Below are positions 1 through 25,116 of a stretch of 26,808 nucleotides of DNA, piece after piece. The stretch's first letter is position 1. Every line of letters begins with the position of its first letter. The position numbers and the translations under genes are program-made. Origin of the DNA: Baffinella frigidus (lineage: Eukaryota > Cryptophyceae > Cryptomonadales > Baffinellaceae); NCBI GenBank assembly GCA_026770585.1, contig MU646562.1, forward strand, positions 488,007 through 514,814, read 5' to 3'. The notes below the pieces were generated by a model. The model had not been told where the DNA came from, made no database searches, and saw only the letters and a program-made list of their open reading frames with translations.

Positions 1-148
1 TAGGATGTAGGGTGTAGGGTGTAGGGTGTAGGGTGTGGAGTGCAGGGTGTGGGGTGTAGGGTGTAGGGTGTAGGGTGTAGGGTGTAGGGTGTAGGGTGTG
101 TGGTGCAGGGTGTAGGGTGTAAGGTATAGGGTGTAGGGTGTAGGGTGA
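1..148 (+). repeat. TGTAGGG heptamer array
   Basis: About twenty near-perfect 7-bp units of TGTAGGG with occasional changes (gtgtggt, gtaaggt). It is related to TTTAGGG telomere repeats but ends against an exon copy at 150, so it is interstitial or intronic on this side. Whether it continues left is not visible. Confidence 0.8.
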
Positions 149-149
149 C

Positions 150-190
150 CTGCAGTTGCGGCTCCCGAGACCTCATTCTGGTGGAGCACC
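150..190 (-). pseudogene. Partial copy of the 444-531 exon
   Basis: The minus strand encodes VLHQNEVSGAATAG, matching VLHQQEFSGAAPP of the exon at 444-531, and ends with GCAG|GTCACC, so a donor is kept. Its 5' half is replaced by an inverted-repeat element (190-309) whose end abuts the codon for Val. It is either a second, partial exon or a broken copy. Confidence 0.4.
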
Positions 191-309
191 ATTTCGAATA
201 ACCCTTAAGCGATAAGACCTATGACCCTACGGTAGGCAATCCGTAGGGGCATAGGTGGGGTTCCTACGGATAAGGTAACGGCAAGGTGGCCCGCTGGGGA
301 CGAAAATCC
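190..309 (-). mobile_element. Element family E copy 1
   Basis: In reverse, AAAGGGATTTTCG, GTTACCTTATCCGTAGGAAC, TGCCTACCGTAGGGTC and GGTTATTCGAAAT match the copy at 26158-26296. The end abuts the exon copy at 150-190. Confidence 0.6.
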
Positions 310-443
310 CTTTGTAGTCCGCTGTGTGGGTACGACAGATGCCATCTGGGCCCGCAATTGCTCATAAACCATTACCATGGGTCCACACATAATAATAAAT
401 AATTAACAACAATAAACATAATAATAAAGAGTAAAGATATGAC

Positions 444-531
444 CTGGTGGCGCGGCTCCCGAGAACTCCTGCTGGTGGAGCACCCACCACTTCTCGTAGA
501 GCTCCGCGTTCTTTCTCCGGTATTGCTCCAC
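444..531 (-). CDS. Exon of minus gene (VEQYRRKN type)
   Basis: After GGATATTCAG come 29 open codons plus one base, ending CACCAG|GTCATA. The peptide is VEQYRRKNAELYEKWWVLHQ, then QEFSGAAPP. It is a helical, charged segment with a Trp pair, ending in a turn. Incoming phase 0 fits the preceding exon; the outgoing single base requires a further exon, found neither here nor clearly to the left. The second half recurs at 190-150. The exon is flanked on both sides by inverted copies of TATGACCTGG/CCAGGTCATA, the terminal sequence of an element family seen elsewhere. Confidence 0.5.
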
Positions 532-559
532 CTGAATATCCGCGCCAGGTCATAACTCC

Positions 560-640
560 CAATTTCCGCGCCCTACGGATTTGCCTACCGTAGGGTCCTA
601 GGTCTGATCGCTCAGGGGTTATTCACAAGCATTTGTACCC
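560..640 (+). mobile_element. Element family E fragment
   Basis: CCCTACGGATTTGCCTACCGTAGGGTCCTAGGTCTGATCGCTCAGG and GGGTTATTC match the right half of family E. It is followed by GTACCCGGATCCGG, also seen at 25977. Confidence 0.5.
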
Positions 641-675
641 GGATCCGGAAATGGATCCGATTTTTTTCTCCTGCC

Positions 676-889
676 CCACTCGAGGCTAGAAATGGGACCA
701 TTTTAAAACAGAGCTTCTTTTACAAGTGAAGGGGGAAGAAAAGAAATGTGTAGTAATTTTCATACAAATAGGGGCATTTGGTCACGTAGCTCAAGTTATA
801 ACTTGAGCTACGTGACCAAGCATGCCCGTGACTGTTACAAATGTTTACAACCCCACATTTAAAATGCTCCCCTTTCCAGCCTCGAGTGG
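676..889. mobile_element. Element family B copy 1
   Basis: CCACTCGAGGCTAGAAATG at the left mirrors the right end, with inner arms ACGTAGCTCAAGTTATAACTTGAGCTACGT forming a perfect hairpin at the centre. Four copies in the window: 676, 10974, 16955 and 23359. Length 205-215 bp, no protein. Confidence 0.8.
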
Positions 890-1060
890 CCACGCCAGAT
901 TCTTGGAAGGAGTCGCCAAAAGTCAATTCCTCCTCAAGGCAAGGGTTTGAAAAGTTCACACCCGTATCCTCATACGGTTTAAAAAAATCAACCCCCACAT
1001 CCAATCTTTTTCCAAGTAGTTTCAACGAAAATTACCACACAATTTGTGTGTACTTTTAAA
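890..1060. mobile_element. Element family C relative, right end lost
   Basis: CCACGCCAGATTCTTGGAAG, CCAAAAGTCAATTCC, CAAGGCA and GGTTTAAAAAAAT match 15747-15872 in order, but no CTGGCGTGG end is found. A piece with AATTTTCGTTG follows (1020-1110). It abuts family B copy 1 directly. Confidence 0.55.
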
Positions 1061-1169
1061 AAAGGCCACGTCCGTGTAGTAATTTTCGTTGCAAATCCGA
1101 TCAGAGATCCCCGAAAATTATTTTGCCAAAATACGATTCGATCTCACTCCAGCCTGCTCGATCCTGGAC

Positions 1170-1526
1170 CCTAACCCCATACACCCTAAGCCCAAACCCC
1201 TACCCCCTACCCCCTAAACACCCTAACCCCTATAACCCCATACCCCCTACCCCCTGACCCCTACCCCCTACCCCCTGGACCAAGTGCCCTAGCCGCTACC
1301 TCTCAAGGGCATCCCCCCCCGCCCCACCTACCCCACCCCGCGCCCCTAAACCCTAAACCTCCCTAAACCCAAAACCTCTAAACCCTAAACGTGTAAACTT
1401 TAAACCTGTAAACCCTAAAACTGTAAACCCCTCAACCTTGAATCCTAACCCTGCAAACCCGTAACATGTAAACCCCTGAATCTGGAAACCCTAACCCTAA
1501 ATCTGTAAACCATAATCTTGTAAACC
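1170..1526 (-). repeat. Degenerate CCCTAAA/CCCCTAC heptamers
   Basis: C-rich telomere-like repeats on the plus strand, that is G-rich on the sense strand of the minus gene. This is one of two blocks that run against the general orientation. No coding signal seen. Confidence 0.75.
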
Positions 1527-1529
1527 CCC

Positions 1530-1654
1530 CACGCCAGAGGGATCGAGGGAAACCGACGCCTTATCCACGCCAGATCTGGCGTCGTTGACTTAAGTATTCA
1601 GGGGATTTCCCCTGAAAGATGTCAAAAGTGGATGTTTCGAGGCCTCTGGCGTGG
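1530..1654. mobile_element. Element family C, short subtype copy 1
   Basis: CCACGCCAGAGG at the left mirrors CCTCTGGCGTGG at the right. The interior, TTGACTTAAGTATTCAGGGG and TCAAAAGTGGATGTTTCGAG, is nearly identical to 12823-12947. About 125 bp. Confidence 0.8.
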
Positions 1655-1661
1655 CCAGCAC

Positions 1662-1796
1662 CTAGCTCTGTCCCACTTGGATTTGGGCTTCCCATAAATT
1701 CACCCCCCCGGAAATTTTACGGGCGAATTTTATGGGGTGTGTGTCAAAATTTACCCGTAAAATTGGAGGGGGGGGCGAATTTATGGGGAGAGCTAG
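1662..1796. mobile_element. Introner-like element (family H)
   Basis: CTAGCTCTGTCCC at the left and GGGGAGAGCTAG at the right are inverted ends. Inside, AAATTTTACGGGCGAATTT and its mirror form a second inverted repeat. AGCAC(C) is duplicated on both sides (1657-1662, 1797-1802). On the minus strand the element begins inside GAG|GTGCTC and ends GAGCTAG|GTGCT, so it can be spliced to restore the exon exactly. Confidence 0.75.
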
Positions 1797-1825
1797 AGCA
1801 CCTCGTGTTCCAGGCGTTGTCTCTC
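1797..1825 (-). CDS. Short coil exon split by an introner-like element
   Basis: The minus strand reads ERQRLEHE and then meets GAG|GTGCTC, the left border of the inserted element at 1662-1796. On the far side the reading would resume as VLA (GTGCTGGCC, 1661-1653). Splicing from this GTGCTC to the TAG at the element end restores RLEHEVLA. The upstream acceptor could be CCTAGAG. The piece is short and surrounded by repeats, so it may be a relic copy rather than a used exon. Confidence 0.35.
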
Positions 1826-1852
1826 TAGGTCTCTCCCCCCCCCGCCTCCTGC

Positions 1853-2290
1853 GTTTAGGGTTTAGGGTTTAGGGTGTAGGGTGTAGGGTCTAGGGTTTAG
1901 GGTTAGGGGTTAGGGTTTAGGGTTGGAGGTGTAGGGTTTAGGGTTTCAGGTTCAGGGTTTAGGATTTAGGTTTTAGGGTGCAAGTTTTAGGGTTTAGTTT
2001 TCGCACAGGTTGGTGTGTGCTCACGCGGGGTGTTGTAGGGGTTAGGGTTTAGGGTTTAGGGTTTAGGGTTTACCCAAGCGCGCTCCACCGGAGTCTTTAG
2101 GGTTTAGGGTTTGGTCGAAGGTTTGAGGTTGAGGGTTTTAGGGTTTAGGGTTTACCCCCTAGTTTTAGGGTTTAGGTTTTACCCCCTAGGTTTAGGGTTT
2201 AGGGTTTAGGGTTTAGGGTTTAGAGTTTAGGGTTTAGGGTTCAGGGTTCAGGGTTCAGGGTTCTTTTCAGGGGTTAGGGTTTACCCTGCG
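1853..2290 (+). repeat. TTTAGGG heptamer array
   Basis: The closest match to a plant/algal-type telomere repeat in the window: many TTTAGGG units with TGTAGGG and TTCAGGG variants. It is broken by short unique stretches near 2000 and 2070 that look like exon relics with GTAAACCC donors. Confidence 0.85.
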
Positions 2291-2521
2291 CGCCTCCTCC
2301 TCCTCCTCCTCCGTGGATGGGTGTAGGGTCCAAGGTTTGAGGTTCAGGGTTCTAGGGTTTAACCCCCGCACGCCTCCTCCTCCTTCTCCTCCGTGGATGG
2401 GTGTAGGGTCCAAGGTTTAAGGTTTAGGGTTCTAGGGTTTCGGGTTTACCCCCCCGCACACCACCTCCTTCTCCTCCTCCGTGGAGGGCTCCGACGCCCC
2501 GCACGGACCACGAGACCTGAA
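2286..2521 (-). CDS. Possible exon copies encoding PSTEEEKE
   Basis: Three copies encode a Pro-Ser-Thr-Glu-rich stretch: 2521-2455 (ASEPSTEEEKE), 2403-2366 and 2319-2286 (PSTEEEEEEARR). Each is followed by G|GTAAACCC or GTTAAACCC, so the donor merges directly into CCCTAAA-type heptamers. The best copy starts after TTCAG and would need an incoming phase of two bases, which the neighbouring exon does not provide. I list this as a probable exon family that may be skipped or broken. A fourth, shorter relic sits near 2073-2100. Confidence 0.3.
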
Positions 2522-2660
2522 TTTGGGGGGTTCGGGTTTCGGGTTTCGGGTTTCGGTTTTCGGGTGGCACGGACCACGAGACCTGAAGTTCCGGGCTTCG
2601 GGTTTCGGGTTTCGTGTTGCGGTTTCGGTTTTCGGATTTCGGTTTTCGGGCGACGGATTT
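2396..2660 (+). repeat. TTTAGGG to TTTCGGG heptamers
   Basis: Heptamers change from TTTAGGG to TTTCGGG within this block and flank two copies of CACGGACCACGAGACCTGAA (2510 and 2567). Open frames reading GFRVSGF across it are repeat artefacts. Confidence 0.75.
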
Positions 2661-2850
2661 GGGGAAGCTGCGGCCTAATCAATCGGGAAAAGCAGGAAAC
2701 GGTCCAGGGAGAGAGAGGAGTCAGCCATGCGAGGGCGGGCGGGAGGGTTTCGGGTTTTGAATTTCGGTTTTCGGGCTTAGGAAAAGCTGCAGTCAGGAAA
2801 AGGAAGATGCAAGCAGGAAAGCTCCAGTGAGGGAGCAGTCAGCAGCACGC
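2660..2850. repeat. Duplicated AAGCAGGAAA segment
   Basis: Two similar stretches (2686-2745 and 2809-2855) share AAGCAGGAAA, TCCAG, GAGGGA and AGTCAGC before a GGGA-rich end. They could be exon relics on either strand; I find no clear frame. Confidence 0.3.
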
Positions 2851-2925
2851 GGGAGGGAGGGAGGGAGGGAGGGAGGGAGGGAGGGAGGGAGGGAGGGAGG
2901 GAGGGAGGGAGGGAGGGAGGGCGGG
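2850..2925 (+). repeat. GGGA tetranucleotide microsatellite
   Basis: About eighteen GGGA units, interrupted near the end by GGGC. On the sense strand of the minus gene it is TCCC, a pyrimidine tract. Confidence 0.9.
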
Positions 2926-3024
2926 AGGGGGTAGCAAAGCGCGGGAGGGAGTCAGGTTCGTTCGAAAGTCGTTTGGGGTGAACCCCCAACCCCCAACCCT
3001 AAAGGAGGGAGGGGGAGAAGGGGT

Positions 3025-3070
3025 ACCATGCTCGTGTCATGGTCGGCGTTGTCGAAGCTCTTGAAAACCG
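3025..3070 (-). pseudogene. Copy of the ADHDTSM exon
   Basis: The minus strand reads FKSFDNADHDTSM and ends at GTACCCCTTC, matching the exon at 3573-3621. A further short copy (TDHDTSI) is at 3502-3530. No clear acceptor is visible, so these look like duplicated fragments. Confidence 0.4.
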
Positions 3071-3118
3071 GTTTTCAAAAACGGGAAATCCCCGAGGTGA
3101 TGCCCTTTCAAGTGCACT

Positions 3119-3265
3119 GCCAGCGAGAATGTTTCGTGGAGGACGTGAAGACCTTTTTGAAACACTATATTGGGTCTCAGACCCATGATAGTGTGAATAA
3201 TGGGTCTGAGAACCATTTTTTTTTCTTACAAGGGTTTGTTTTTCCTGCGAAATATTCTCGCTGGT
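3119..3265. mobile_element. Inverted-repeat element ending CCAGCGAGAAT
   Basis: CCAGCGAGAATGTTTCG at the left faces CGAAATATTCTCGCTGG at the right, about 147 bp apart, with inner inverted halves (TGGGTCTCAGACCCA and TGGGTCTGAG). No protein is encoded, so it is a non-autonomous MITE-like element. Single copy here. Confidence 0.55.
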
Positions 3266-3274
3266 AGTAAGTGT

Positions 3275-3490
3275 GCAAGCCATCTGTTCACGTGGCACGA
3301 AACCAATAGGTCCCTACGGACCTCCTTCCGTAGGGTCCTATGGAATCAATTTCCGAAGTTCCCAGGCCCAGGAGTGTGCAAGCCATCTGTTCACCTGGCA
3401 CGAAACCCATAGGTCCCTACGGATGTCCTTCCGTAGGGTCCTATGCAATCAATTTCCGACGCTCCCAGGCCCGGGATAAGCTGTTTCGGG
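3275..3490. mobile_element. Element family G, two tandem copies
   Basis: GCAAGCCATCTGTTCAC ... ATAGGTCCCTACGG ... CCGTAGGGTCCTATG ... TCAATTTCCGA occurs twice in a row (3275-3370, 3371-3480). Relatives are at 9452-9565, 10051-10150 and 10352-10475. A CCTACGGTAGG-like palindrome is at the centre. Confidence 0.6.
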
Positions 3491-3509
3491 TTGCTGGTGG
3501 TACTATGCT

Positions 3510-3775
3510 CGTGTCGTGGTCGGTTTCGGGTTCAGGGTTTGGGGTTTGGGGTCTAGGGTTTAGGAGGGGTACCATAGAAGTATCGTGGTCGGCACTGTCC
3601 AAGCTCTTTTCGCTCGAGCTTCTGTGTTGAGGGTTTCGGGTTTTGGGTTTCGGGCTCAGGGTGTAGGGTTCCGGGTTTAGGGTGCAGGGTTTGGGCTCAG
3701 GGTGTAGGGTTTAAGGTTCAGGGTTTGGGGGTTTAGGGGTTTAGGGGTTTAGGGGTCTAGGGAGTAGGGTTTCGC
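3510..3775 (+). repeat. Heptamer-like G-rich repeats
   Basis: TTTCGGG, TGTAGGG and TTTAGGGG variants fill the stretch on both sides of the exon at 3573-3621. Confidence 0.6.
3573..3621 (-). CDS. Exon of minus gene (EKSLDSADHD type)
   Basis: After a CAACACAG acceptor, one base plus 16 codons lead to an ATG|GTACCC donor. The peptide is SSSEKSLDSADHDTSM, acidic and less clearly helical. The incoming phase matches the two bases left by exon 4844-4756. Two more copies of the 3' half (ADHDTSM, TDHDTSI) lie at 3070-3025 and 3530-3502, each followed by GTACYMCC. The repeated unit and donor support a transcribed exon family; its place in the final protein is less sure. Confidence 0.45.
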
Positions 3776-3835
3776 GTGCTAATCGAGGTCAGAAAAGGGA
3801 CCAGTTTGAAAACTGCTCCAGCTGAAAGTCGAGAG

Positions 3836-3990
3836 TTCTAGCTCTGATCCACTTGATTTCGTCTCATTATTAAAAACATCTAAACGTCATTATTAGTTTT
3901 AAAGGAGGATCTCCAGTACAAATTGACTGTCCATTTACGGCTAAACGTTTTTAATGATGAGACGAAATCAAGTGGGACAGAGCTAGAATT
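3836..3990. mobile_element. Element family H with 38-bp inverted ends
   Basis: TTCTAGCTCTGATCCACTTG at the left is mirrored by CAAGTGGGACAGAGCTAGAA at the right, and the inversion continues through GATTTCGTCTCATTATTAAA. The middle is unique and AT-rich. It shares its terminal 15 bp with the elements at 1662-1796 and 15589-15722. No clear target duplication is visible. Confidence 0.7.
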
Positions 3991-3994
3991 TGAG

Positions 3995-4370
3995 GCGGGG
4001 AGATCACGTTCCCTCTGTTCCAACCGGAGGGAACCTTGCTCGGATAGCGAGGAAATCAATGTATAATATATGTTTAGACTTGAGAACTGCATGTACAATA
4101 CATGTAAAACCTGTATAAGTACATGTTGGTACCAGGAACGGAACGTATATAGATGATTAGGCTGTAACGCCAGATGTTGATGAGGTAAAATAGATGTACA
4201 GACTGTATACCTTGCTCGGATAGCGAGGGGGCAAACGGATCGGGTAATTTCTGGCTAGCCTTCCAAATGGGAAGTCCAGCGCCCACAAGTTGGACACGAC
4301 TCGTACCAGTTTTTGGATTCGTACCCGAATTGATTCCCCAAACCTGCAACCCGCAACCCGCAACCGCAAC
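3995..4370. other. Non-repetitive intron sequence
   Basis: Between the element at 3836-3990 and the family D copy at 4376 I see a direct repeat, CCTTGCTCGGATAGCGAGG (4032 and 4211), and CAACCCGCAACCCGCAACCG at 4347, but no gene or inverted-repeat element. Confidence 0.4.
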
Positions 4371-4375
4371 GCTGG

Positions 4376-4456
4376 CGATTCATCGCCCTAACTCGCCCTA
4401 GGCAGGTCCTGGGGCCCTACCGTAGGGCGTACGAACCTACTCACCACTTAAGGGAT
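4376..4456. mobile_element. Element family D copy 1 (left end lost)
   Basis: CGCCCTAACTCGCCCTAGGCAGGTCC, the palindromic CCCTACCGTAGGG and a right end CACTTAAGGGATA match the copies at 20947, 22037, 22186 and 25615. The left inverted end is missing or altered. Confidence 0.6.
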
Positions 4457-4482
4457 AGGGTTTCGGGGGTGAAGGTTAGGGT

Positions 4483-4680
4483 TGATACACGTATACTTCG
4501 CGGCAAAGCCCTCAAACTGGAGGCGCGCGCCCTATACCCTACAACCTAGACTCTAAGGAACCAGAACCCGCCTGTTGACAAATGTTAGGGAACCGTCCAT
4601 TTATGACAAACGGGGGGAACCCTCAACGGGTGTAGGGCTGACGCACGTGTACTTGGCGGCAAACGCCCTCCGACTGGAGG
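4483..4680 (-). pseudogene. Two decayed copies of the FAAKYT exon end
   Basis: At 4680-4628 and 4530-4486 the minus strand repeats the 3' half of the exon at 4756-4844 (RLQSE/RLQFE, FAAKY, GTGYRTC). Both lack the 5' half and an acceptor. Each is separated from its neighbour by about 100 bp of shared intron sequence, so the duplicated unit includes intron. Confidence 0.45.
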
Positions 4681-4755
4681 CGTGCGCGGCTTAGCGGTTC
4701 AGGGTCTATGTGTGAGACGATAGGGTTTCGGGGTTGAAGGTGCGGGGTGACGCAC

Positions 4756-4844
4756 GTGTATTTGGCGGCAAAGTCCTCCGACTGGAGGCGCGCGCGCGCG
4801 ACGGCCCCCGTCTCATCGCTCCTCGCTAGGTCGTCCAGCGCCCC
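4756..4844 (-). CDS. Exon of minus gene (GALDDLARS type)
   Basis: The reading GALDDLARSDETGAVARAR, then LQSEDFAAKY, runs from a GTGAAG acceptor to an AC|GTGCGT donor: 89 bp, 29 codons plus two bases. Two decayed downstream copies (4628-4680, 4486-4530) keep the RLQSE/FAAKYT end and the GTGYRTC donor. An upstream copy of the start at 4994-4971 (GALDHLAA) has a better acceptor, CACACTCAG. The two leftover bases AC are completed by the first base of the 3621-3573 exon. Part of the CG-rich middle, 4787-4802, is a CG dinucleotide run that may be expanding. Confidence 0.5.
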
Positions 4845-4884
4845 CTTCACAGTTTACGGTGCAGGCTTTCAGGGTGCAGGCTTC

Positions 4885-5960
4885 AGGGGTTTGGGGAGAA
4901 CCGTGAGGGTTTGGGGTTTGGGGTCCAGGGTTTATGGGTTAGGGGTTGGAGGTTTAGGGTTTAGGGTTTGGGCCGCCAGGTGGTCCAGCGCACCCTGAGT
5001 GTGGGTGTACAGGGGTACCTTGCTCATGAGAAACCGCCCCCCACCTCGAGGGCGAGGGCTTTGGCCTTCCAGAACTTCATCGCGAGGGTTCAGGATTCAG
5101 GGTGCAGGGTGCAGGGCGTCAAGGTTGAGGGGTTTATGGGGTGTACCTCGAGGGTTTAGGGTTTAGGGTTTTCGGGTTTAGGGATTCACCTCAAGGGCGT
5201 GTACTTTGAGGGTTTAGGGGGTTTGGGGACCTCGAGGGTAAGGGATTTCGCCAGAACTTCATCGCGTTCTTCAGGGGTTAGTGTCGAGGGTTGGGGGTTC
5301 AGGGTTTAGGGTTGAGGGTGCAGGGTGTCAGGGTTGAGGGGGTTATGGGGTGTACTTCGAGGGTTTAGGGGGTTAGGGTTTCACCTCGATGGTTTAGGGG
5401 TTCAGGGTTCAGGATTTTAGAGGTTTAGGGTTTAGGGTTTAGGTTCTGGGGTCTGGGGACCTCTAGGGCGAGGGCTTTCGCCTTCCAAAACTTCATCGCG
5501 TCCCGGTTTAGGGTTTAAATCCCAAACCCTAATCAGGGATTAGGGGGTTCGGTTTAGGATTCAGGGTGCAGGGAGCAGGGTTTCGGGGTTTCAGGGGTTC
5601 AGGGGGTTATGGGGTTCACCTCGAGGGCGAGGGCTTTCGCCTTCCAGAACTTCATCGCGAGGGTTCAGGATTCACGGTTCAGGGTTTGGGGTTTAGGGTT
5701 TAGGGTTTGGGGTGTCAGGGTTGAGGGGTTTATAGGGTGTACTTCGAGGGTTTAGGGGGTTAGGGACTCACCACGGTGGTTGAGGGGTTCAGGGTTCAGG
5801 ATTTTAGAGGTTTAGGGTTTAGAGTTTAGGGTTTAGGTGTTTCGGGTTTAGGGGTTCACCTCGAGGGCGTGTACTTTGAGGGTTTAGGGGGTTAGGGGGT
5901 TGACCTCGAGGGCGAGTGCTTTCGCCTTCCAGAACTTCATCGCGTCCCGGAACTCGCGCG
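4885..5960 (+). repeat. Heptamer field with exon copies
   Basis: TTTAGGG, TTCAGGG, TGCAGGG and TCGAGGG variants fill about 800 bp between five related exon pieces. Longer units of 150-230 bp, exon piece plus intron, are repeated with the same internal heptamer order. Confidence 0.65.
5038..5660 (-). pseudogene. Four repeated copies of the AMKFWKAKALALE exon
   Basis: Copies at 5616-5660, 5461-5505, 5226-5275 (most decayed) and 5047-5085 repeat the second half of the exon at 5905-5967. They are separated by 150-230 bp of TTTAGGG-like heptamers that also repeat in detail (GAGGGTTTAGGG, CTTCGAGGG). Most keep GAG|GT at the 3' end. The copy at 5047 is followed by a fragment of an inverted-repeat element that ends GTACCCCTGT. 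None has a clear acceptor. They could be alternative exons but read as tandem duplication relics. Confidence 0.5.
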
Positions 5961-5967
5961 TCTTGTT
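5905..5967 (-). CDS. Exon of minus gene (NKTREF type)
   Basis: A CGAAAGCAG acceptor is followed by 21 open codons ending CTCGAG|GTCAAC, phase 0 at both ends. The peptide is NKTREFRDAMKFWKAKALALE, a basic amphipathic helix fitting the coil. The second half, encoding AMKFWKAKALALE, is repeated four more times downstream (5616-5660, 5461-5505, 5226-5275, 5047-5085), mostly with the GAG|GT donor kept. This is the only copy with the upstream half and a clear acceptor, so I treat it as the functional exon. Confidence 0.6.
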
Positions 5968-5984
5968 CTGCTTTCGGCTTCGGC

Positions 5985-6180
5985 TTTAGCGTTTCGGGTT
6001 TAGGGTTTGGGGTTTAGGGTTTGCCTGCGTTTGTGTGGGTTTGTTTGAGTTTTGGTGGATTTGTTTGAGTTTGTTTGGGGTTGTTTCGGTTTCGGTTTCG
6101 GGTTTGAGGTTTCGGGTTTCGGGTTTCGGGTTTGAGATTTGAGGTTTGGGGTTTGCGGGTTGGGGTGTAGGGCTCGGGGT
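5985..6180 (+). repeat. TTTCGGG/TTTGAGT repeats
   Basis: Heptamer-like G/T-rich repeats immediately upstream, in transcription, of the exon at 5905-5967. Sense-strand orientation is C/A-rich. Confidence 0.65.
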
Positions 6181-6274
6181 TGAGGGTTTAGAGGATGTCC
6201 CTTTTTGGACGAGATTCGGAGGGTATGACCTGAACGCCCTCAAGCTGGGCAGTGAGAGCTGTAGTCGACGACTG

Positions 6275-6385
6275 AGGGCGGTTTGAGGGTTGAGGTTTGA
6301 GGGTTGAGGGTTGAGTGTTGAGTGTTGGGGGTTTCGGATTTCGGGTTTCGGGATTCGGGTTTCGGATTTCGGGTTTCGGGTATGA
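6275..6385 (+). repeat. TTGAGGG to TTTCGGG heptamers
   Basis: Starts with TTGAGGG units and converts to TTTCGGG, ending exactly at the GTCATA donor of the exon at 6387-6473. Confidence 0.7.
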
Positions 6386-6386
6386 C

Positions 6387-6473
6387 CTGGAGGCCCTCAA
6401 GCTGTGCGGTGAGGGCGTCGACGACCGAGGGCGAGGCCACCCCGCGCGGCTTCCCTTGCTCCATCGCGTGCAA
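6387..6473 (-). CDS. Exon of minus gene (LHAMEQG type)
   Basis: A CACCCTGCAG acceptor precedes 29 open codons that end at CTCCAG|GTCATA, phase 0 at both ends. The peptide is LHAMEQGKPRGVASPS, then VVDALTAQLEGLQ. The last half is helical and continues the coil; the first half has a Gly/Pro turn. A shortened copy (TALTAQLEGVQ before the same GTCATA donor) is at 6226-6265. Heptamers of TTTCGGG type begin immediately after the donor in the sense-strand CCCGAAA orientation. Confidence 0.6.
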
Positions 6474-6502
6474 CTGCAGGGTGGGGCTTCGGGTTTCACT
6501 TG

Positions 6503-6604
6503 GGCCGCCTAATTAAGGTCAATTAGGCCGCCTAATTAACTTCAATTAGGCCGCCTAATTGACTTCAATCAGGCCGCCTAATTAAGTCCAATTAGGCCTA
6601 ATTA
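6503..6604 (+). repeat. 23-bp tandem repeat
   Basis: Four copies of a unit starting GGCCGCCTAATTAA followed by a shorter fifth. The AATTAATT core is partly palindromic. It lies 30 bp upstream, in transcription, of the acceptor of exon 6387-6473. Confidence 0.85.
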
Positions 6605-6657
6605 ACGGAGCAGACGTACCACTGAGGGGGGTTGAGCGGCTGGAATGAACGTTCATG

Positions 6658-6782
6658 GTTTACAGGGGTACCTCGCTCAAAAGAAACGCCCACCCCCCTA
6701 GGGCCACCATAGGGCCCTAGGCATAGTCCTACTGTAGGGTCCTAGGGGGGGTTGGTTTCGTATGAGCGAGGTACCCCTGTAG
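6658..6782. mobile_element. Element family Q, full copy
   Basis: ACAGGGGTACCTCGCTCA at the left mirrors TGAGCGAGGTACCCCTGT at the right; the inner arms are CCCCCCTAGGG and CCCTAGGGGG. About 125 bp. Partial relatives are at 19900-19990 (right end intact) and 5006-5040 (end only). Confidence 0.75.
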
Positions 6783-6847
6783 GGTTTGGGGTTTAGGGTT
6801 GCGACAGGCCGCCCCGCGCGGGAACCCCCGCTTCAATGCAACTTCAT

Positions 6848-6935
6848 CTCCGCAAAAGTATAAATTAATTGCTTTTGGCGCAACGAAATGTACTACAAAA
6901 AGCTTTATTATTACTAGTACGACGACAGGGTAGGG
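6848..6935 (+). mobile_element. Element family K, truncated copy
   Basis: The left half, with CATCTCCGCAAAAGTATAAA and GCTTTTGGCGCAACGAAAT, matches the full element at 17559-17697. The right half is replaced by three GACAGGGTAGGGTTGC repeats. Confidence 0.65.
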
Positions 6936-6984
6936 TTGCGACAGGGTAGGGTTGCGACAGGGTAGGGTCTACGCTAGACCTCAG

Positions 6985-7092
6985 GGGTGGCAATCACAAA
7001 AGTCAAACTTATTTACAGCCTCGAGTCAACTTTTGGCAGAATGTATGGATTTCCGTAGATTCTGCCCTTACGGAAACTTTTGATTGCCCCCC
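6985..7092. mobile_element. Small inverted-repeat element
   Basis: GGGTGGCAATCACAAAAGT faces ACTTTTGATTGCCCCCC about 105 bp away. It contains AGTCAACTTTTGGC, a word shared with many other elements. No coding. Confidence 0.45.
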
Positions 7093-7159
7093 ATCACGTC
7101 TAAAGTAGTGCGACAGGCCCCGCGCGGATCTGGCGCCACGCGGCGGCGTGCTCCGCCCG

Positions 7160-7402
7160 CGCGAAAGAGAGAGAGCGAGAGAGGGCGAGAGAGGGCGAGA
7201 GGGAGAGAAAGGGAGAGAGAGGGAGAGAGAGAGAGAAAGAGAGAGGAGGGAGAGAGGGAGAGAGAGCGAGGGAGAGAGAGCGAGGGAGAGAGAGCGAGGG
7301 AGAGAGCGAGCGAGGGAGAGAGAGCGAGGGAGAGAGAGAGAGAGAGAGAGGGAGAGCGAGGGAGAGAGCGAGCGAGAGAGAGATAGAGCGCGCGAGAGAG
7401 AG

Positions 7403-7438
<36 letters not shown>

Positions 7439-7500
7439 CGGAAGAGAGAGCGAGAGAGCGAGAGAGGGAGGGAGAGAGGGAGCGAGAGAGAGAGAGAGCG

Positions 7501-7532
<32 letters not shown>

Positions 7533-7712
7533 AGAGAGAGCGCAGGCGAGAGAGAGAGCGAGAGAGGGAGAGAGAGAGGGAGGGAGGGAGGGAGAGAGAG
7601 AGAGCGAGAGCAAGAGAGAGCAAGAGAGAGAGAGCGAGCGAGCGAGAGAGAGCAAGAGAGAGAGAGCGAGCGAGCGAGAGAGAGCAAGAGAGAGAGAGAG
7701 CGAGAGAGACAG
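7160..7712 (+). repeat. GA microsatellite, about 550 bp
   Basis: An almost uninterrupted purine run of GA with GGGA, GCGA and short CG parts. It splits a decayed exon copy. The long Ser-Leu or Arg-Glu frames across it are repeat translations, not genes. Confidence 0.95.
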
Positions 7713-7769
7713 AGAAGGAGGGCTCCTCCTCGCCCTCCTCCTTCTCTTTCGCCGTGTTCTTCTACATCG

Positions 7770-8660
7770 AGTTCTCCAGTCCCTACATGTAGTTATACAT
7801 CCCATACATGTAGTTATACAGCCCATACATCTATTATTCGCTCACATCCTGGTACAAACGGTATCCCGCGGCATCCCCCCGGTTAGCTACATCATCGGAC
7901 CTGGCGGGCCAACATACTTGTTTAGGATATAGAAATACGTAAAAATACATGTATAGGATATACAACTAATTGTGCAGCTGTACATACATATATAGGATAT
8001 ATATAACTTGAACCTGGCGGCGGCGTGCTCCACGCGGACGCGCCGCGTCCCTGTACATCTAATTATACAGCCTCTACATGGAGTTATACAAACTGTACAT
8101 GTATTTATACAGCCCATACATGTATACTCTGCTCCCTTCCTGGTATAAACCGTACAAACATTATGCCCCGATTAGCTCCCCTCTCCAACCTGGCGGCACG
8201 CGGGTGCTCCGCCCGGACGCGCGACAATTTAATTTTGGAACAAGACAGATTCTGTCCGTTATTTTAGGCTTCCGACGCCGAAGATAAGGGTGTGTATGCT
8301 ATTTCAGGAATACAATGATGCTATTTTACGCCTTTTATGTGGACAGATTCTGGTATGTTCCGAGATGAAATTCCTTTGAACTCGCCGCGCTCCGCCCTCC
8401 TCCCCAAACAAGTAGTTATACATATCCTATGTATGTATGGACAGCTGCAAAATTAGTTGTATATCCTATACATGTATTTTCAAGTATTTATATATCCTAA
8501 ACACGTGTTTTTGAACCTGGCGGCGTGCTCAGCGCGGACGCGCGACAATTCCGCGTCCCCCTACATGTAATTATACAGTCCCTACATGTAGTTATACCGC
8601 CCATACATCTATTATTCGCCCCCTTCCTGGTACAAATTGCTCCCCCCGGTTAGCTACGCT
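7770..8660. mobile_element. Element family R, three copies
   Basis: A motif series (TCCCTACATGTAGTTATACA, GCCCATACATCTATTATTCG, CCTGGTACAAA, CCCCCCGGTTAGCTAC) occurs at about 7770-7892, 8050-8180 and 8560-8660, with a relative at 20173-20262. Between them are other AT-rich segments with TATAGGATATA inverted arms (7920-8005, 8412-8512). The units alternate with exon fragments. Confidence 0.55.
8223..8372. mobile_element. Element with ends around GACAGATTCTG
   Basis: ATTTTGGAACAAGACAGATTCTGTCC at the left is partly mirrored by GGACAGATTCTGGTATGTTCCGAGA at the right. A second copy is at 11587-11742, and a fragment at 20118-20172 is in reverse. About 150 bp, no protein. Confidence 0.55.
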
Positions 8661-8667
8661 CTCCAAC

Positions 8668-8787
8668 CTGGCGGCACGCGGCGGCGTGCTCGGCGCGGAC
8701 GCGCGACAGCTCCTCCTCGCCCTCCTCCTTGGAGCTCGCGGCGTTCTGCACCAACCGCCGCACCTCGTCCTCTAAGGCTCGCGTCAC
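8668..8787 (-). CDS. Coiled-coil exon of minus gene (VTRALED type)
   Basis: A CACACGCAG acceptor is followed by exactly 40 open codons and a CAG|GTTGGA donor, phase 0 at both ends. The peptide begins VTRALEDEVRRLVQNAASS, then EEGEEELSRVRAEHAAACRQ. It is strongly charged and predicted helical. The second half recurs in at least four decayed copies downstream, at 8517-8555, 8187-8228, 8011-8048 and 7106-7163. A TC tract (8820-8876) and an inverted-repeat element (8903-9071) lie just upstream in the intron. Confidence 0.65.
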
Positions 8788-8816
8788 CTGCGTGTGGGGG
8801 TCAGGGTTAGGGTTCC

Positions 8817-8819
<3 letters not shown>

Positions 8820-8874
<55 letters not shown>

Positions 8875-8876
8875 CC
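8820..8876 (+). repeat. TC microsatellite
   Basis: A TC run of about 55 bp in the intron just upstream of exon 8668-8787. It is purine-rich on the sense strand, the opposite of the general trend. Confidence 0.9.
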
Positions 8877-8902
8877 CCTTCCTCGTCCCCGCGAGAGGGG
8901 AT

Positions 8903-9071
8903 CCACGCCAGGGCATAAGTGCAAAAATCACCACGCGACGTTTCGCTTGGAACGTGTTTCGTGGTACAAATCCCACATTGTTGCGGTGGGCGGGATTCAC
9001 TTTTGGCGTGGTTTCCCCCCCAAATCTCCAGAATGTACTTGAGGCAGATTGCCACTTCTGACCTGGCGTGG
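8903..9071. mobile_element. Element family C, long subtype
   Basis: CCACGCCAGGGCATAAGTG at the left mirrors CTTCTGACCTGGCGTGG at the right. About 169 bp. The terminal word CCACGCCAGGTCATAAG recurs at 19166-19360 and 25925-26112 and next to the exon at 444-531. Confidence 0.7.
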
Positions 9072-9109
9072 AACCTGGAACCCTAAGAGAGAAAGTTTGG
9101 CGCAAACGT

Positions 9110-9260
9110 TGAACCCTCACACCGAACCCCAACCCTCAACCCTCAACACCAACCCCTACCCCCTACCCCCTCACTCCTCAACCCCTCAAGCCTCAAACCC
9201 TTTCACCCCAGCCCCCCCAAAATGACGCGCTTGACCCCACACCCCAAATGCCCCACCGCG
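9110..9260 (-). repeat. CCCTCAA/CCCCTAC repeats
   Basis: C-rich heptamer-like repeats on the plus strand, together with 9560-9840 the second block opposed to the general orientation in the minus gene. Confidence 0.55.
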
Positions 9261-9273
9261 GGCTCCTCACTGA

Positions 9274-9413
9274 CCACGAACCCTCACGGGAGGAGCAAAT
9301 CGTCGATTTGCGATTTCGATTTCCACCCTACGGAGGGGTCGGATCCGACCCCGCTGTAACGAGAAAATCGGTTATTTAAATTGACGATTTGCTCCTCCTG
9401 TGGGTGTTGGTGG
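9274..9413. mobile_element. Element family M copy 1, inside an exon copy
   Basis: CCACGAACCCTCACGGGAGG faces CCTCCTGTGGGTGTTGGTGG; the inversion extends through AGCAAATCGTC/GACGATTTGCT. A GGGTCGGATCCGACCCC palindrome is near the centre. On the minus strand it splits an exon copy between GAGCTGAAGCTC and AGTGAGGAG. Relatives are at 14214 and 16598. Confidence 0.75.
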
Positions 9414-9451
9414 GAGCTTCAGCTCCGAACCCTCGAGGTCTCTAAAATACA

Positions 9452-9565
9452 TCAGCCATCTATTCACCCCCCCTAGGAAACCCCTACGCCCCTAGGCATG
9501 TCCTACGGTAGGGTCCTAGGGAATGAAAATTCGAAGCTCCCAGACCCGAAATAAGCTGTTTCGAA
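9452..9565. mobile_element. Element family G copy 3
   Basis: AGCCATCTATTCACC, CCCTAGG, CCTACGGTAGGG, GAAGCTCCCAGACCCGAAAT, AAGCTGTTTCG in the same order as at 10051 and 10352. On the minus strand it ends just upstream of a TTTTAG acceptor. Confidence 0.6.
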
Positions 9566-9840
9566 ACGGTTAGGGGTTAGGGGTCAACCCCGCCAACCCC
9601 TTCACCCGAACAGCCCCCCCCCCACGCCTCAAACCCTACCCACCCCGAAATCACGCAACCCTCAGCCCCTGGGACACGTCAAACACCGTCTGTGTCACCC
9701 TTTACCCCCGCCCCCCGTCGCGCCTCACCTTCCAATAAACCCTGAACCTCAACCCTACAGCCTCACCATAAATACTCCTCAACCCTCATCCCCTCAACCC
9801 CTCAACCCCTCAACTCTCAAAACATTTTATACCCCAAAAC
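9566..9840 (-). repeat. C-rich degenerate repeats
   Basis: CCCTCAAC, CCCCTCAACC and similar variants with no coding signal, apart from a relic GTGAGGCGCGACGGG donor-like sequence on the minus strand at 9714-9730. Confidence 0.5.
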
Positions 9841-9980
9841 TTATCCGGGGAAACCTATTTTTTCCCCATTTGATGGCAAGGAAAATTACTACGCAATGCG
9901 TTCTTACTAGTAATATCAAATCATCCGTGTAGTAATTTTCATTGGAATCGAATGAAAGAAAAATCGGTTTCCCCGGATAA
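9841..9980. mobile_element. Element family J copy 1 with AAAC target repeat
   Basis: TTATCCGGGGAAACC and AAAATTACTAC arms are mirrored at the right by GTAGTAATTTT and GGTTTCCCCGGATAA. AAAC immediately flanks both ends (9837-9840, 9981-9984), a likely target duplication. About 140 bp. Confidence 0.75.
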
Positions 9981-10050
9981 AAACAACGCGCCTCACCGCG
10001 CGATCCCCCTGAGCTTGAGCTCCTCCCCCTCGAGTTCCCTAAAACACATC

Positions 10051-10150
10051 AGCCACCTATTCAACCCCCTAGGAAACCTCTACGCCCCTGCGGTAGGGTC
10101 CTAGGGAATGAATATTCGAAGCTCCCAGACCCGAAATAAGCTGTTTCGGA
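10051..10150. mobile_element. Element family G copy 4
   Basis: Same series as 9452-9565. On the minus strand it ends 8 bp before a GTGTTTTAG acceptor of an exon copy. It is followed at 10140-10255 by four repeats of AGACCCGAAATAAGGTGTTT. Confidence 0.6.
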
Positions 10151-10351
10151 TTGTTGAGACCCGAAACAAGGTGTTCCGAGACCCGAAATAAGGTCTTCCC
10201 AGACCCGAAATAAGGTGTTTCGGGTTGCCGAAATAAGGTGTTTCGGGTTGTTGTCAGCACCGCACGCTCCTCCCCGAGCTTGAGCGCCCCCCCCTCGACC
10301 TCCCCCCGCGTGCGGTCCAGCGCCCCCTGCAGCGCGGCATTCTCGCGCTCC

Positions 10352-10475
10352 AGCCATCTATTCACCCCCCTAGGAAACCCCTACGCCCCCAGGCATGTCT
10401 TACGGTAGGGTCCTAGGTCCTAGGAAACGAATATTCGAAGCTCCCAGACCCGAAATAAGCTGTGTCGGGTTGTTG
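10352..10475. mobile_element. Element family G copy 5
   Basis: The same series, placed so that on the minus strand its end GGTGAATAGATGGC runs straight into the codons LEREN of an exon copy. TCCTAGG is duplicated in the middle. Confidence 0.6.
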
Positions 10476-10728
10476 GGGTTAGGAGCACCGCGCGTTGCTC
10501 CCTGAGCTTGAGCGCCTCCCCCGCGAGTTCCCCCCGGGTGCGGTCCAGCGCCCCCTGCCTCCACTTTGTGTCCATCTAAACGAATCGAATGTTCTAGAAC
10601 GTTCCGCACCCTCCTCCACCTTGCCCCTCAAATGCAAGACTCGCCCCCATCGGGCATTGGCGTCTTCCCTTGAGAATCTACGCTATCTGAATGTGACCCT
10701 TTACCCCCGCCCCGCCCCCGCGCCTCAC

Positions 10729-10842
10729 CGCGCGCTCCTCCCTGAGCTTGAGCGCCTCCCCCTCCAACTCGCGCCGCGAGCGGTCGAGCGCCCCCTGCAG
10801 CGCGGCCTTCTCGCGCTCCAGCCCGGCCAGCACGCTGATCAC
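10729..10842 (-). CDS. Coiled-coil exon of minus gene (VISVLAG type)
   Basis: A CTCGCAG acceptor is followed by 38 open codons and a GTGAGG donor, phase 0 in and out. The peptide starts VISVLAGLEREKAALQGALD and continues RSRRELEGEALKLREERA. This is a heptad-like, highly charged helix typical of a coiled coil. It is the most complete member of a block of related exon copies spanning 9.2-11.6 kb. The acceptor region is itself duplicated as a 27-bp tandem repeat (10843-10896), giving two possible acceptors. The family is unknown. Confidence 0.65.
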
Positions 10843-10896
10843 CTGCGAGCGTGCCCAAAGTCAACTCCACCTGCGAGAGTGCCCAAAGTCAACTCC
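10843..10896 (-). repeat. 27-bp tandem duplication of an acceptor region
   Basis: Two copies of GGAGTTGACTTTGGGCAC followed by CTCGCAG on the minus strand directly before exon 10729-10842. A third, diverged copy precedes the exon relic at 11566. TTGAC about 20 bases before the AG fits a branch-site position. Confidence 0.6.
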
Positions 10897-10973
10897 AGAT
10901 TTCTTGGATTTCCCTCGAAAAGTGGCCGGTTCGTGGTACGAATGTTACAAGGGCGGGTGTGCGGCGCGTGCGG

Positions 10974-11185
10974 CCACTCGAGGCTAGAAATGTGACTGTT
11001 TTAAAACAGGGATTCCTTCACAAGTGAAAGGGGGGAAAGAGGCGTGTAGTAATTTTCACACAAATGGGGGAGTTTGGTCACGTATCGGGCGGAATTCCGC
11101 CCGATACGTGACCACGCCTGCCCGTGACTGGTACTAAATTTAACAACCCCACATTTAAAATAGTCCCATTTCTAGCTTCGAGTGG
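10974..11185. mobile_element. Element family B copy 2
   Basis: Same plan and about 212 bp. The central hairpin is ACGTATCGGGCGGAATTCCG and its mirror. It shares TGTAGTAATTTTCACACAAA and CTGCCCGTGACTGGTACTAA with the other copies. Confidence 0.8.
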
Positions 11186-11299
11186 GGTGTGGCTTCCGCA
11201 GTGGATAAAGTGGCGAATCCGACCTCGTTTGTTGATGGCATGGGCTGACACCGACAACCCTGTCTAAATAAAACGAAATCAACGAAATCCACGCTGCAG

Positions 11300-11395
11300 C
11301 TCGAGCGCAGCATTATATACGTTGTATACTCGGTGATATATGACTCTGGGTAGTTCACTCTCTAGAGCATCTTCTGCTTTTGTGTGTCGCCTCCC
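11300..11395. mobile_element. Element family W copy 1
   Basis: TATACGTTGTATACTCGGTG, ATATGACTCTGGGTAG and TGTGTCGCCTCC match, in reverse, the stretch at 15913-16000. No inverted ends identified. Confidence 0.5.
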
Positions 11396-11403
11396 TGATT
11401 CTA

Positions 11404-11545
11404 TCATCCGGGGAATCCTATTTTTCTTTCATTTGATGGCAACGAAAATTACTACACAAATGCTTTAATATTACTAATAAGAACGGATTGTGTGGTAATT
11501 TTCGTTGCCATCAAATGAAAGAAAAATAGGTTTCCCCGGATAATG
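11404..11545. mobile_element. Element family J copy 2
   Basis: Near-perfect inverted arms of about 50 bp (ATCCGGGGAATCCTATTTTT, CATTTGATGGCAACGAAAAT and mirrors). It cuts the exon relic at 11545-11566 after VASVLAG. Confidence 0.8.
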
Positions 11546-11586
11546 CCCGGCCAGCACACTCGCCACCTGCGACAGTGGCCAAAGTC

Positions 11587-11742
11587 AATCTAATTTCGGA
11601 ACCAGACAGAATCTGTCCCGCTATCTGAGGCTCCCCGCGCGGAAGGTAAGGGTGTATATGCTATTTAAGGAATCAAATGATGCTATCTTACGTCTTTTTA
11701 TCAGGACAGATACTGGTATGTTCCGAGATGACATTCTAGTGA
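11587..11742. mobile_element. Second copy of the 8223 element
   Basis: AATTTCGGAACCAGACAGAA, GGTAAGGGTGTATATGCTAT and TCTGGTATGTTCCGAGATGA match 8223-8372 in order. Confidence 0.6.
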
Positions 11743-11809
11743 GGATTTCTGGGCTGGAGCGCGACCACCTCCAATTAAGAATTGCTCTCCCACGCAGGGC
11801 TGGAGGGGG

Positions 11810-11935
11810 GGGGATTCAAAAGTCAATGTTTTAAGAGAAAACTGTATTCGAAAGTCAATTTTTAACAGGAAACGGCTCCAAGAACGCGGAAACGGCTCGA
11901 AGAACGCGGACGGGATACCCTACCCAAGAGCCTGG
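11810..11935. mobile_element. Element family X copy 1
   Basis: ATTCAAAAGTCAAT, GAAAACTGTATTC, AAAGTCAATTTTT and two repeats of ACGGCTCSAAGAACGCGG match 16826-16925 in reverse. Confidence 0.5.
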
Positions 11936-12755: not shown

Positions 12756-12811
12756 CTTGGCTCGTCTGAGCCTACCCCCCCTCTGCTCGACGACCCTCTG
12801 CTCGACGACCG

Positions 12812-12819
12812 TTTTTATA
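12812..12819 (-). promoter_or_regulatory. TATA-like box of minus gene
   Basis: TATAAAAA on the minus strand, 57 bp upstream of the ATG at 12755, a normal spacing for a short 5' leader. It sits just outside the left end of the inserted element. Confidence 0.4.
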
Positions 12820-12822
12820 ATC

Positions 12823-12947
12823 CCACGCCAGAGGGCTCGAGGGAAACCGACGCCACATCCACGCCAGATCTGGTTTTGTTAACTTAAGGATTCAGGGAAT
12901 TTCCCCTGTGAGATGTCAAAAGTGGATGTTTCGAGCTCTCTGGCGTG
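12823..12947. mobile_element. Element family C, short subtype copy 2, in the promoter
   Basis: CCACGCCAGAGGGCTCGAGG to CTCTGGCGTG, nearly identical to 1530-1654. It occupies 125 of the 292 bp between the two start codons. Confidence 0.8.
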
Positions 12948-13047
12948 TTCCGGATTTTATAGGTTTGAACTTTTTTTCGGCACCTTCACGGTCCTCTTTC
13001 GGCTATTCCTTCCTGCTCTCACAAACAACACTCCTTTCGAGAACACA

Positions 13048-13284
13048 ATGGTCGACTCCCCGGCACTAACCAAAGCGGAGCGCCAGAACGGGCTGGAGCG
13101 GCGCATCCAGCGCGCGACGGCCGACCGGGACGAGAGTGAGCAGCGATGTCGCAAGGCCGAGCAGGCCGCGGTGGATGCTGAGGTGCGGGCGGAGGCGCTT
13201 CAGGACCAGCTGCGCTCAGCTCAGAGCGAGAGCGCGCGGATGCGGGAGGAGAATCGGGCGCATGAACGCGCCGCGCGATCGAAG
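13048..13284 (+). CDS. First exon of plus gene: coiled coil
   Basis: The ATG at 13048 sits in AACACAATGG, a good eukaryotic start context, and opens 79 codons ending TCGAAG|GTAGTC. The peptide starts MVDSPALTKAERQNGLERR, continues IQRATADRDESEQRCRKAEQ and is a continuous charged helix to the donor, with heptad-like spacing of Leu, Ala and Ile. An in-frame ATG further upstream (12913) lies inside an inverted-repeat element and gives a hydrophobic, repeat-derived extension, so I prefer 13048. Exon base composition (GC-rich, codon third-position G/C) contrasts sharply with the flanking element sequence. Confidence 0.7.
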
Positions 13285-13436
13285 GTAGTCGCTCACTTCC
13301 GTTGAACGAACGGCTGTCTGACAAATCAATCAGCAATTGAGGCTCTGTCCTGTCAGGACGCGCGTGGCCAACCCAAGGAGAGACACGTACGACTTTTGAC
13401 CTAACCCTAGCTCTGCCTCAGTCGGGTGGCCGCCTA

Positions 13437-13548
13437 TTCTCAAGTTGACATGCTGGGTTTGCGGTACAATCCGGCAATTTTGGAGCGGAAAAGAGCCCGG
13501 GCCCGCCAAACTGGTGAGCCCAAATAGACTGAGAGAGAGCTAGAGCTA
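13437..13548. mobile_element. Element family I copy 1
   Basis: TCTCAAGTTGACATGCTGGG, TGCGGTACAA, GGCAATTTTGGAGCGG and TGGTGAG match 25003-25116 and 26316-26378. Ends not defined. Confidence 0.5.
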
Positions 13549-13592
13549 GCGCAAAACCTGCCCGGTTTCTAGAAACCGGGCAGGTTTTGCGC
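13549..13592. repeat. Perfect 44-bp palindrome
   Basis: GCGCAAAACCTGCCCGGTTTCT is followed at once by its exact reverse complement. It would form a cruciform or RNA hairpin with no loop. It lies in the first intron of the plus gene. Confidence 0.9.
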
Positions 13593-13889: not shown

Positions 13890-13978
13890 GTCGCCCTAAA
13901 CCCTAAACCTTGAATAACCCCTGAACCTTGAATAAACCCTCAAGGTGGGTCCCTAAGGTGGGCGCCGCGCGAGGCAGG

Positions 13979-15588: not shown

Positions 15589-15722
15589 CTAGCTCTGTCC
15601 CAGTTCAATTTGGGCTCGTAGATAGAGTGCCCCCCACGAAATTTCACAGGTGAATTTCATGGGGGGGGGGGTCAAAATTCACCTGTGAAATTTCGGGGGG
15701 GGGGGGGCACTCTATCTACGAG
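15589..15722. mobile_element. Element family H copy 3
   Basis: The left end CTAGCTCTGTCCCAGTTCAA matches 1662. The interior is a long hairpin: CTCGTAGATAGAGTGCCCCC, GAAATTTCACAGGTGAATTT and mirrors, with G runs of 11 and 13. The right CAGAGCTAG end is missing. A micro-exon-like KLTEEQ piece follows. Confidence 0.65.
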
Positions 15723-15746
15723 CAGAAACTCACCGAGGAACAGGTT

Positions 15747-16597: not shown

Positions 16598-16768
16598 CCA
16601 CCAACCCTCACGGAAGGACCAAATCCATGATTTAGACCAGTTCCCAAAAGTTGATTTTTCACCAAGATTGGGACTTAAGTTGACTCAGAGACCCCAGGTC
16701 TGGGGTCTCTGCAAGGTGAATTTGAGGTCTGAAAATCGATGATTTGGTCTTTCCTTGAGGGTTGGTGG
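16598..16768. mobile_element. Element family M copy 3, inside an exon copy
   Basis: CCACCAACCCTCACGGAAGG faces CCTTGAGGGTTGGTGG; arms continue ACCAAATCCATGATTT/AAATCGATGATTTGGT, and a central GAGACCCCAGGTCTGGGGTC hairpin. It splits the copy ERDVAR. Confidence 0.75.
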
Positions 16769-17556: not shown

Positions 17557-17558
17557 TC

Positions 17559-24991: not shown

Positions 24992-25002
24992 GTATCTTCT
25001 AA

Positions 25003-25116
25003 AGTTGACATGCTGGGTTCGCGGTACAAATTCGTCAACTTTGGGGCGGGAAGGAGCCTGGGCCCACCTGATTGGTGAGACGCAATATACGGAGACAGGG
25101 CTAGGTTATGAGTCCC
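25003..25116. mobile_element. Element family I copy 2
   Basis: AAAGTTGACATGCTGGGTTC, GCGGTACAAATTCGTCAACT and GGTGAGACGCAATATACGGA. It follows the donor of exon 24899-24991 after ten bases. Confidence 0.5.

Follow-up and report, generated by a model that had tools for sequence, protein, structure and literature searches.

Introner elements of Micromonas and Aureococcus are reportedly MITE-like, with terminal inverted repeats (TIRs) and target site duplications, and are said to act as introns. In Symbiodinium microadriaticum, introners carry TIRs and are bounded by 4-bp duplicates, the donor being derived from the duplicate while the acceptor is carried by the element, as depicted in Fig. 2B of Gozashti et al. 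2022 (PMC9860276). The introner elements of Amoebophrya have inverted repeats together with direct repeats of 3-5 nt over the exon-intron boundary, according to PMC7789003. A nested arrangement is that of the stwintrons, in which an internal intron lies at the donor of an external intron, so that the outer donor is restored once the internal intron has been cut out, as outlined in PMC12403724. The main text of the Symbiodinium study (PMC9860276) names neither cryptophytes nor Baffinella, Guillardia or Cryptista, and a search of partial coverage, judged on titles and the beginnings of abstracts, retrieved no report of introners in cryptophytes, so that we make no claim of their absence from print. 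Here we describe an inverted-repeat element with introner-like features in a 26,808-nt stretch of contig MU646562.1 of the cryptophyte Baffinella frigidus (hereafter the window; position 1 is its first letter).

The inverted-repeat element, its target duplicate and its relatives

Three features define the insertion site:

1662..1796, minus strand (that of the host gene), 135 bp: inverted-repeat (MITE-like) element, recognized from its sequence, a fold z of -11 and its relatives
1657..1661, unstranded: copy AGCAC of the target duplicate (minus strand, GTGCT), a possible second donor (GTGCTGG)
1797..1801, unstranded: copy AGCAC of the target duplicate (minus strand, GTGCT), the putative first donor, directly after the predicted exon

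The 9-bp ends of the element (CTAGCTCTG and GAGAGCTAG; reverse complement, CTAGCTCTC) match at 8 of 9 positions, and the inner arms complete one long hairpin; as RNA, the minus strand of 1657-1801 folded at -74.9 kcal/mol (z = -11.05), and none of 200 shuffles folded equally well. The two AGCAC copies are 5 bp long, perfect and flush with the element, and the direct repeat extends to 7 bp (AGCACCT) when the element's first CT is counted in. Two hallmarks of a MITE, terminal inverted repeats and a target site duplication, are found here.

The duplicate was set against the flanks of 35 inverted-repeat elements, hand-chosen mostly from 77 listed rows, telomere-like pairs, inner arms and short palindromes having been dropped; some ends, including those of 1662-1796, were placed by eye or by alignment. 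A flush duplicate of at least 3 bp occurred in one of the 35 chosen elements, namely 1662-1796, and eight showed a flush match of at least 2 bp, against 9.7% expected by chance. Among mismatched flanks, paired from different elements of the same set, a match of at least 5 bp arose in 3 of 1190 cases. When the ends were allowed to slide by 3 bp, 5 bp was reached by 4 of the 35 (4.9% each by chance, and so not far from it) and at least 6 bp by 1662-1796 only (1.5% by chance). An initial annotation had claimed an inverted-repeat element with AGCAC duplicates at 1662-1796, and this observation is confirmed here. No known RNA family was matched at the gathering threshold. The 18-bp element end had no match in viral contigs and none in prokaryote genome contigs; a 14-base version matched 72 viral stretches, a count that stands without a computed chance rate.

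Two relatives of the element are present in the window, and three further elements bear on its interpretation:

3838..3986, unstranded: relative of 1662-1796, terminal 18 bp identical (CTAGCTCTGTCCCACTTG), core different
15589..15725, plus strand: relative of 1662-1796 along its length, with identity at 100 of 128 aligned bases and 14 gap positions over 15589-15723
24997..25104, plus strand: copy of another CTAG-ended element, 81% identical to 13437-13543, its CTAG end being the predicted acceptor of coil exon 25105-25209
9274..9413, minus strand: contrasting element inside a coil-exon copy, with a 2-bp duplicate, an empty site seen against an intact exon copy, and no GT-AG at its ends
16598..16768, plus strand: contrasting element inside a coil-exon copy, two other copies aligning with a 2-nt gap at the site, with no clear duplicate and no GT-AG at its ends

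No flush target duplicate borders the relative at 3838-3986, which is close to a coil-like stretch placed 25th in the donor coil ranking. The alignment of the 15589 relative scored 113, whereas none of 200 shuffles exceeded 16. At its right end this relative has GAGCAG, adjoined, by eye, by a short coil-like stretch, KLTEEQ, which was read against the exon copies 14903-14960 and 15345-15391 and was too short for the exon scan. The two exon-interrupting elements have ends like CCACCAACCCTCAC. No second clean introner-like case was found in the window among the 35 chosen elements. At 4227-4033 on the minus strand, an intron-like stretch that reads, by eye, GTATACAG...GAGCAAG/GT (a slash marks a possible splice junction throughout) lies between the copies of a 19-bp direct repeat, CTCGCTATCCGAGCAAGGT; it is possibly another duplication-type intron.

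The host gene and the splice motifs

The window was read on the minus strand over 1-11900 and on the plus strand over 1-4200, 12800-16200 and 16200-26808. The concatenated predicted minus-strand coil exons gave one match (E = 0.001) among 1986 candidates, the hypothetical protein T484DRAFT_1747755 of Baffinella frigidus, with 99% identity over 41% of the query. All 217 of its 217 residues are encoded exactly on the minus strand, in pieces at 12755-12477, 12294-12169, 10839-10726 and 8784-8653, confirming a coiled-coil gene with the minus-strand orientation of the finding. The NCBI model spans 12755 to 8653, with no piece near 1.8 kb, and omits the exon copies at 10489-10575 and 10261-10357. 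Since its C-terminus, VGERS, is a read-through past CAG/GTTGG, a possible donor (8640-8680, minus strand), the public model may be truncated. A Pfam search with the two coil genes gave nothing above cut-offs (one protein had three weak matches and the other had none), and a PDB search at E up to 1 gave no match for the minus-strand protein and two weak ones (0.029 and 0.27) for the plus-strand protein. The coil exons occur as tandem, often broken copies (for example AERDVARVLEQTLAAEQ, AAEVLKQRVEVLEMRLEDEQ and LEREKAALQGALDRSRRELEGEALKLREERA), separated by inverted-repeat elements and repeats, and a second copy of the start of the T484DRAFT_1747755 gene (17963-18052, minus strand; 30 residues, 77% identical, starting MEDGAHSAPSNNDDSLVLSP) sits inside a stretch of plus-strand coil exons. 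Degenerate repeats of a telomere-like 7-base unit (TTTAGGG and variants) occupy intron-like stretches on both strands.

14749-15391 (plus), 24303-25206 (plus), 10008-10854 (minus), 8016-8790 (minus): tandem coil-exon stretches
1-150, 1160-1530, 1853-2660, 4900-6380, 14690-14900, 18390-18540, 21050-21460: telomere-like repeat stretches

On the minus strand the insertion reads exactly GAG/GTGCTCTA...AGCTAG/GTGCTGGC, which forms a flush GT-AG interval (GAG/GTGCTC...GAGCTAG/GTGCTGG) and corresponds to the 140-nt intron, from 1801 down to 1662, predicted by the initial annotation. A scan of the 35 elements on both strands, with 0-8 flanking bases, detected a flush GT...AG in two of them, 1662-1796 (minus) and its relative 3838-3986 (plus). 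The proposal of a donor derived from the duplicate and a possible acceptor from the element end thus holds at the level of motifs, the GT coming from the duplicate and the AG from the end. In the minus frame the third codon of the element is a stop (GTG CTC TAG), so that an exon that is in use and continues would require removal of the element by splicing. A second inverted-repeat element and three predicted gene parts surround or include this interval:

1802..1848, minus strand, 47 nt: predicted exon, with acceptor ACGCAG before 1848, ending CACGAG in phase 0 (...RDLERQRLEHE)
1530..1653, unstranded: second inverted-repeat element (CACGCCAGAGG...CCTCTGGCGTG), separated from 1662-1796 by 8 nt, with a related copy at 12824-12947 (90% identity)
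444..531, minus strand: predicted next exon, VEQYRRKNAELYEKWWVLHQQEF..., phase 0 after ATTCAG, ending CACCAG/GT (end placed by eye)
532..1801, minus strand, 1270 nt: predicted present-day intron, containing, from its 5' edge on, the element, the second inverted-repeat element and telomere-like repeats

RDLERQRLEHE, encoded in phase 0 by the 11 codons that lead up to the GT at 1801, had the best coil score of 8922 donor-by-phase cases (9006 before simple-repeat stretches were left out), and 0.46% of 34,560 open 11-codon windows scored at least as high. Because the coil-composition score is a simple scale of our own making, set after the peptide had already been read by eye, this rank is support and not proof. 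Being the best coiled-coil stretch before any GT, RDLERQRLEHE makes it probable that the exon ends at 1802; its start at 1848 is less certain, since it was placed by eye and includes a run of G. We found no gene model covering 1802-1848 or reaching 1.8 kb, and no convincing second copy of RDLERQRLEHE in the window, the next best being RDMDKQR (57%, E = 0.91).

The initial annotation further proposed that the element had inserted into an exon, which its excision restores. The arithmetic is exact, the joined flank with one duplicate copy kept reading ...CACGAG/GTGCTGGCCACGCCAGAGG...; this is no evidence by itself, because it is true of any insertion cut out with one duplicate copy. An interrupted exon was not supported. 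Beyond the junction come 8 nt (1661-1654), then the second inverted-repeat element, then telomere-like repeats, and the codons on the 3' side carry no coding signal: the peptide VLATPEASKHP is like any open stretch, being equalled by 46% of the 34,560 windows. Where an introner would have coding exon on both sides, we observed a strong signal upstream and none downstream.

Below 1660 on the minus strand, the best acceptor-plus-coil site was ATTCAG/GTGGAGCAATACCGG at 531 (VEQYRRKNAELYEKW..., phase 0), ranking 1 of 297; in the whole window it ranked 103 of 9024, and 2.7% of open windows scored equally well. The exon phases agree across 1802 and 531 (LEHE/VEQYRRKNAEL). This top-ranked site in matching phase suggests that the element lies at the 5' edge of a 1270-nt intron, and the most economical present-day structure would be an exon to 1802, an intron from 1801 to 532 and an exon from 531 to 444. 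A search with the predicted downstream exons for a homolog showing the sequence beyond LEHE covered 742 candidates, limited to proteins between 0.55 and 1.75 times as long as the query, and none of them scored at E ≤ 10. Other intron-like stretches of the minus strand likewise start right after an end in ...GAG and run, by eye, into telomere-like repeats (for example CTCGAG/GTGAACCCC). In two of the three introns of the T484DRAFT_1747755 model the donor and the next exon both start with GTG, so that the match of GTGCT with GTGCT is partly ordinary here (3 of 5 bases).

Proposed insertion at an existing donor and the alternatives

Read from the sequence, the locus comprises the element, the duplicate, the splice motifs and a strong coil stretch on one side; we infer the translation of the exon, the next exon at 531 and all splicing. 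We lean towards the interpretation that the element is a MITE, a short and non-autonomous TIR DNA transposon, whose insertion hit the 5' splice site of an intron already present in a long minus-strand coiled-coil gene. In that case it probably extended this intron instead of giving rise to another. The MITE would have landed on the donor and duplicated the five bases with which the intron begins, GTGCT. Of the two copies, the upstream one (1801-1797) would have stayed beside the exon as the present donor, and the downstream one (1661-1657) would have become a second donor, preceded by the element's CTAG. A single splicing step could then join the donor at 1801 to the acceptor that precedes 531; alternatively, a first step could remove the element (GT...CTAG) and regenerate the old donor GAG/GTGCTGG, from which a second step would remove the rest. 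Both routes would give the same mRNA, since excision of the element rebuilds the old donor. Consistent with such an insertion, the donor follows immediately on the coil stretch, in phase 0, the joined flank lacks a coding signal downstream and the 531 exon is in the same phase; against it, the 531 exon ranks only 103 of 9024 window-wide, the homolog search with the downstream exons came back empty and the T484DRAFT_1747755 model ends at 8653. A duplicate beginning at the first intron base also requires luck, target preference or selection, because random insertion rarely starts there.

A rather doubtful alternative is that the element is a true introner, which hit a coding exon and formed a new 140-nt intron (1801-1662) whose removal restores the exon, the rest having been removed or displaced by later insertion and repeat growth. 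The exact GT-AG and the length-neutral excision would agree with this, as would the related CTAG-type ends adjoining predicted coil exons at 15725 (by eye) and 25104 and the same splice arrangement described for Symbiodinium introners. It needs, however, exon sequence beyond GTGCTGG that has since been lost, and we gave a strict exon introner less weight because the joined flank lacks coding on its 3' side. Also against it, the elements that do interrupt exon copies, at 9274-9413 and 16598-16768, have no GT-AG ends, and no pyrimidine tract is seen by eye before the CTAG.

That an ordinary MITE lies in a decaying exon copy, in a gene full of broken exon duplicates and with no splicing as described, appears unlikely. 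Many partial exon copies occur on both strands, elements inside exon copies are without splice signals, and T484DRAFT_1747755 omits copies such as 10489-10575 and 10261-10357, all of which would fit; however, the coil stretch is open, in phase and ends exactly at GAG/GT, and RDLERQRLEHE has no convincing second copy in the window. Were the 5-bp duplicate instead a chance match, with element bounds other than 1662-1796, one would understand why the relative at 3838-3986 has no flush duplicate, why 34 of the 35 chosen elements have at most 2 bp and why three other elements reach 5 bp with the 3-bp slide. Yet the flush 5-bp match was reached in so few mismatched flank pairs (3 of 1190) that chance was judged unlikely, and the left end is identical to that of 3838-3986 for 18 bp; we regard this explanation as very improbable. 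In summary, the locus is a well-described real transposon insertion with the splice motifs given above, and the label of textbook introner, with its exon restored, claims more than the evidence bears.

Insertion at a donor bears on the old question of how introns arise and grow. As a tentative extension, to which we attach limited confidence, cryptophyte CTAG-ended MITEs might insert at donors in general, each duplicate creating a pair of donors around a removable unit, so that introns would grow from their 5' edge in splice-neutral, possibly recursive steps. Were CTAG-ended MITEs to grow introns in this way, the process would be one of intron lengthening and not of intron birth; the single case here is a pointer only. 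If the element family proved to be spliced genome-wide, a cryptophyte would join the lineages with introner-like transposons, and the family would also illustrate how landing on a splice donor can be neutral from the outset, because the duplicate copies the donor.

Comparison with known systems

The Symbiodinium introners, as illustrated in PMC9860276, have the same arrangement and share TIRs, a short duplicate (4 bp there, 5 bp here), a duplicate-derived donor and an element-borne acceptor. According to the same account, those introners come in families with many genic copies in annotated genomes of a dinoflagellate, whereas the present host is a cryptophyte in which we read, from sequence alone, a single duplicate-flanked copy and two relatives in the window, with no visible downstream exon. 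The Aureococcus example given there has 8-bp duplicates, compared with 5 bp here, and the elements of Micromonas and Aureococcus form whole-genome families. With the Amoebophrya elements, as characterized in PMC7789003, the element shares inverted repeats able to form a hairpin joining the exon ends, as well as direct repeats at the boundary; those elements are found among non-canonical introns genome-wide, whereas canonical GT-AG motifs at one site are seen here.

The resemblance to stwintrons, as described in PMC12403724, is that removal of an inner unit rebuilds an outer donor, here GAG/GTGCTGG, a likeness in sequence that depends on the predicted donor of the longer intron. The stwintrons described there are fungal and have their donor split between bases 1 and 2, whereas the inner unit here would lie before base 1 and be a TIR element. 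A duplicate that supplies a splicing signal is a known route by which transposons are kept out of mRNA, and the present case would add an example with a nested-donor twist.
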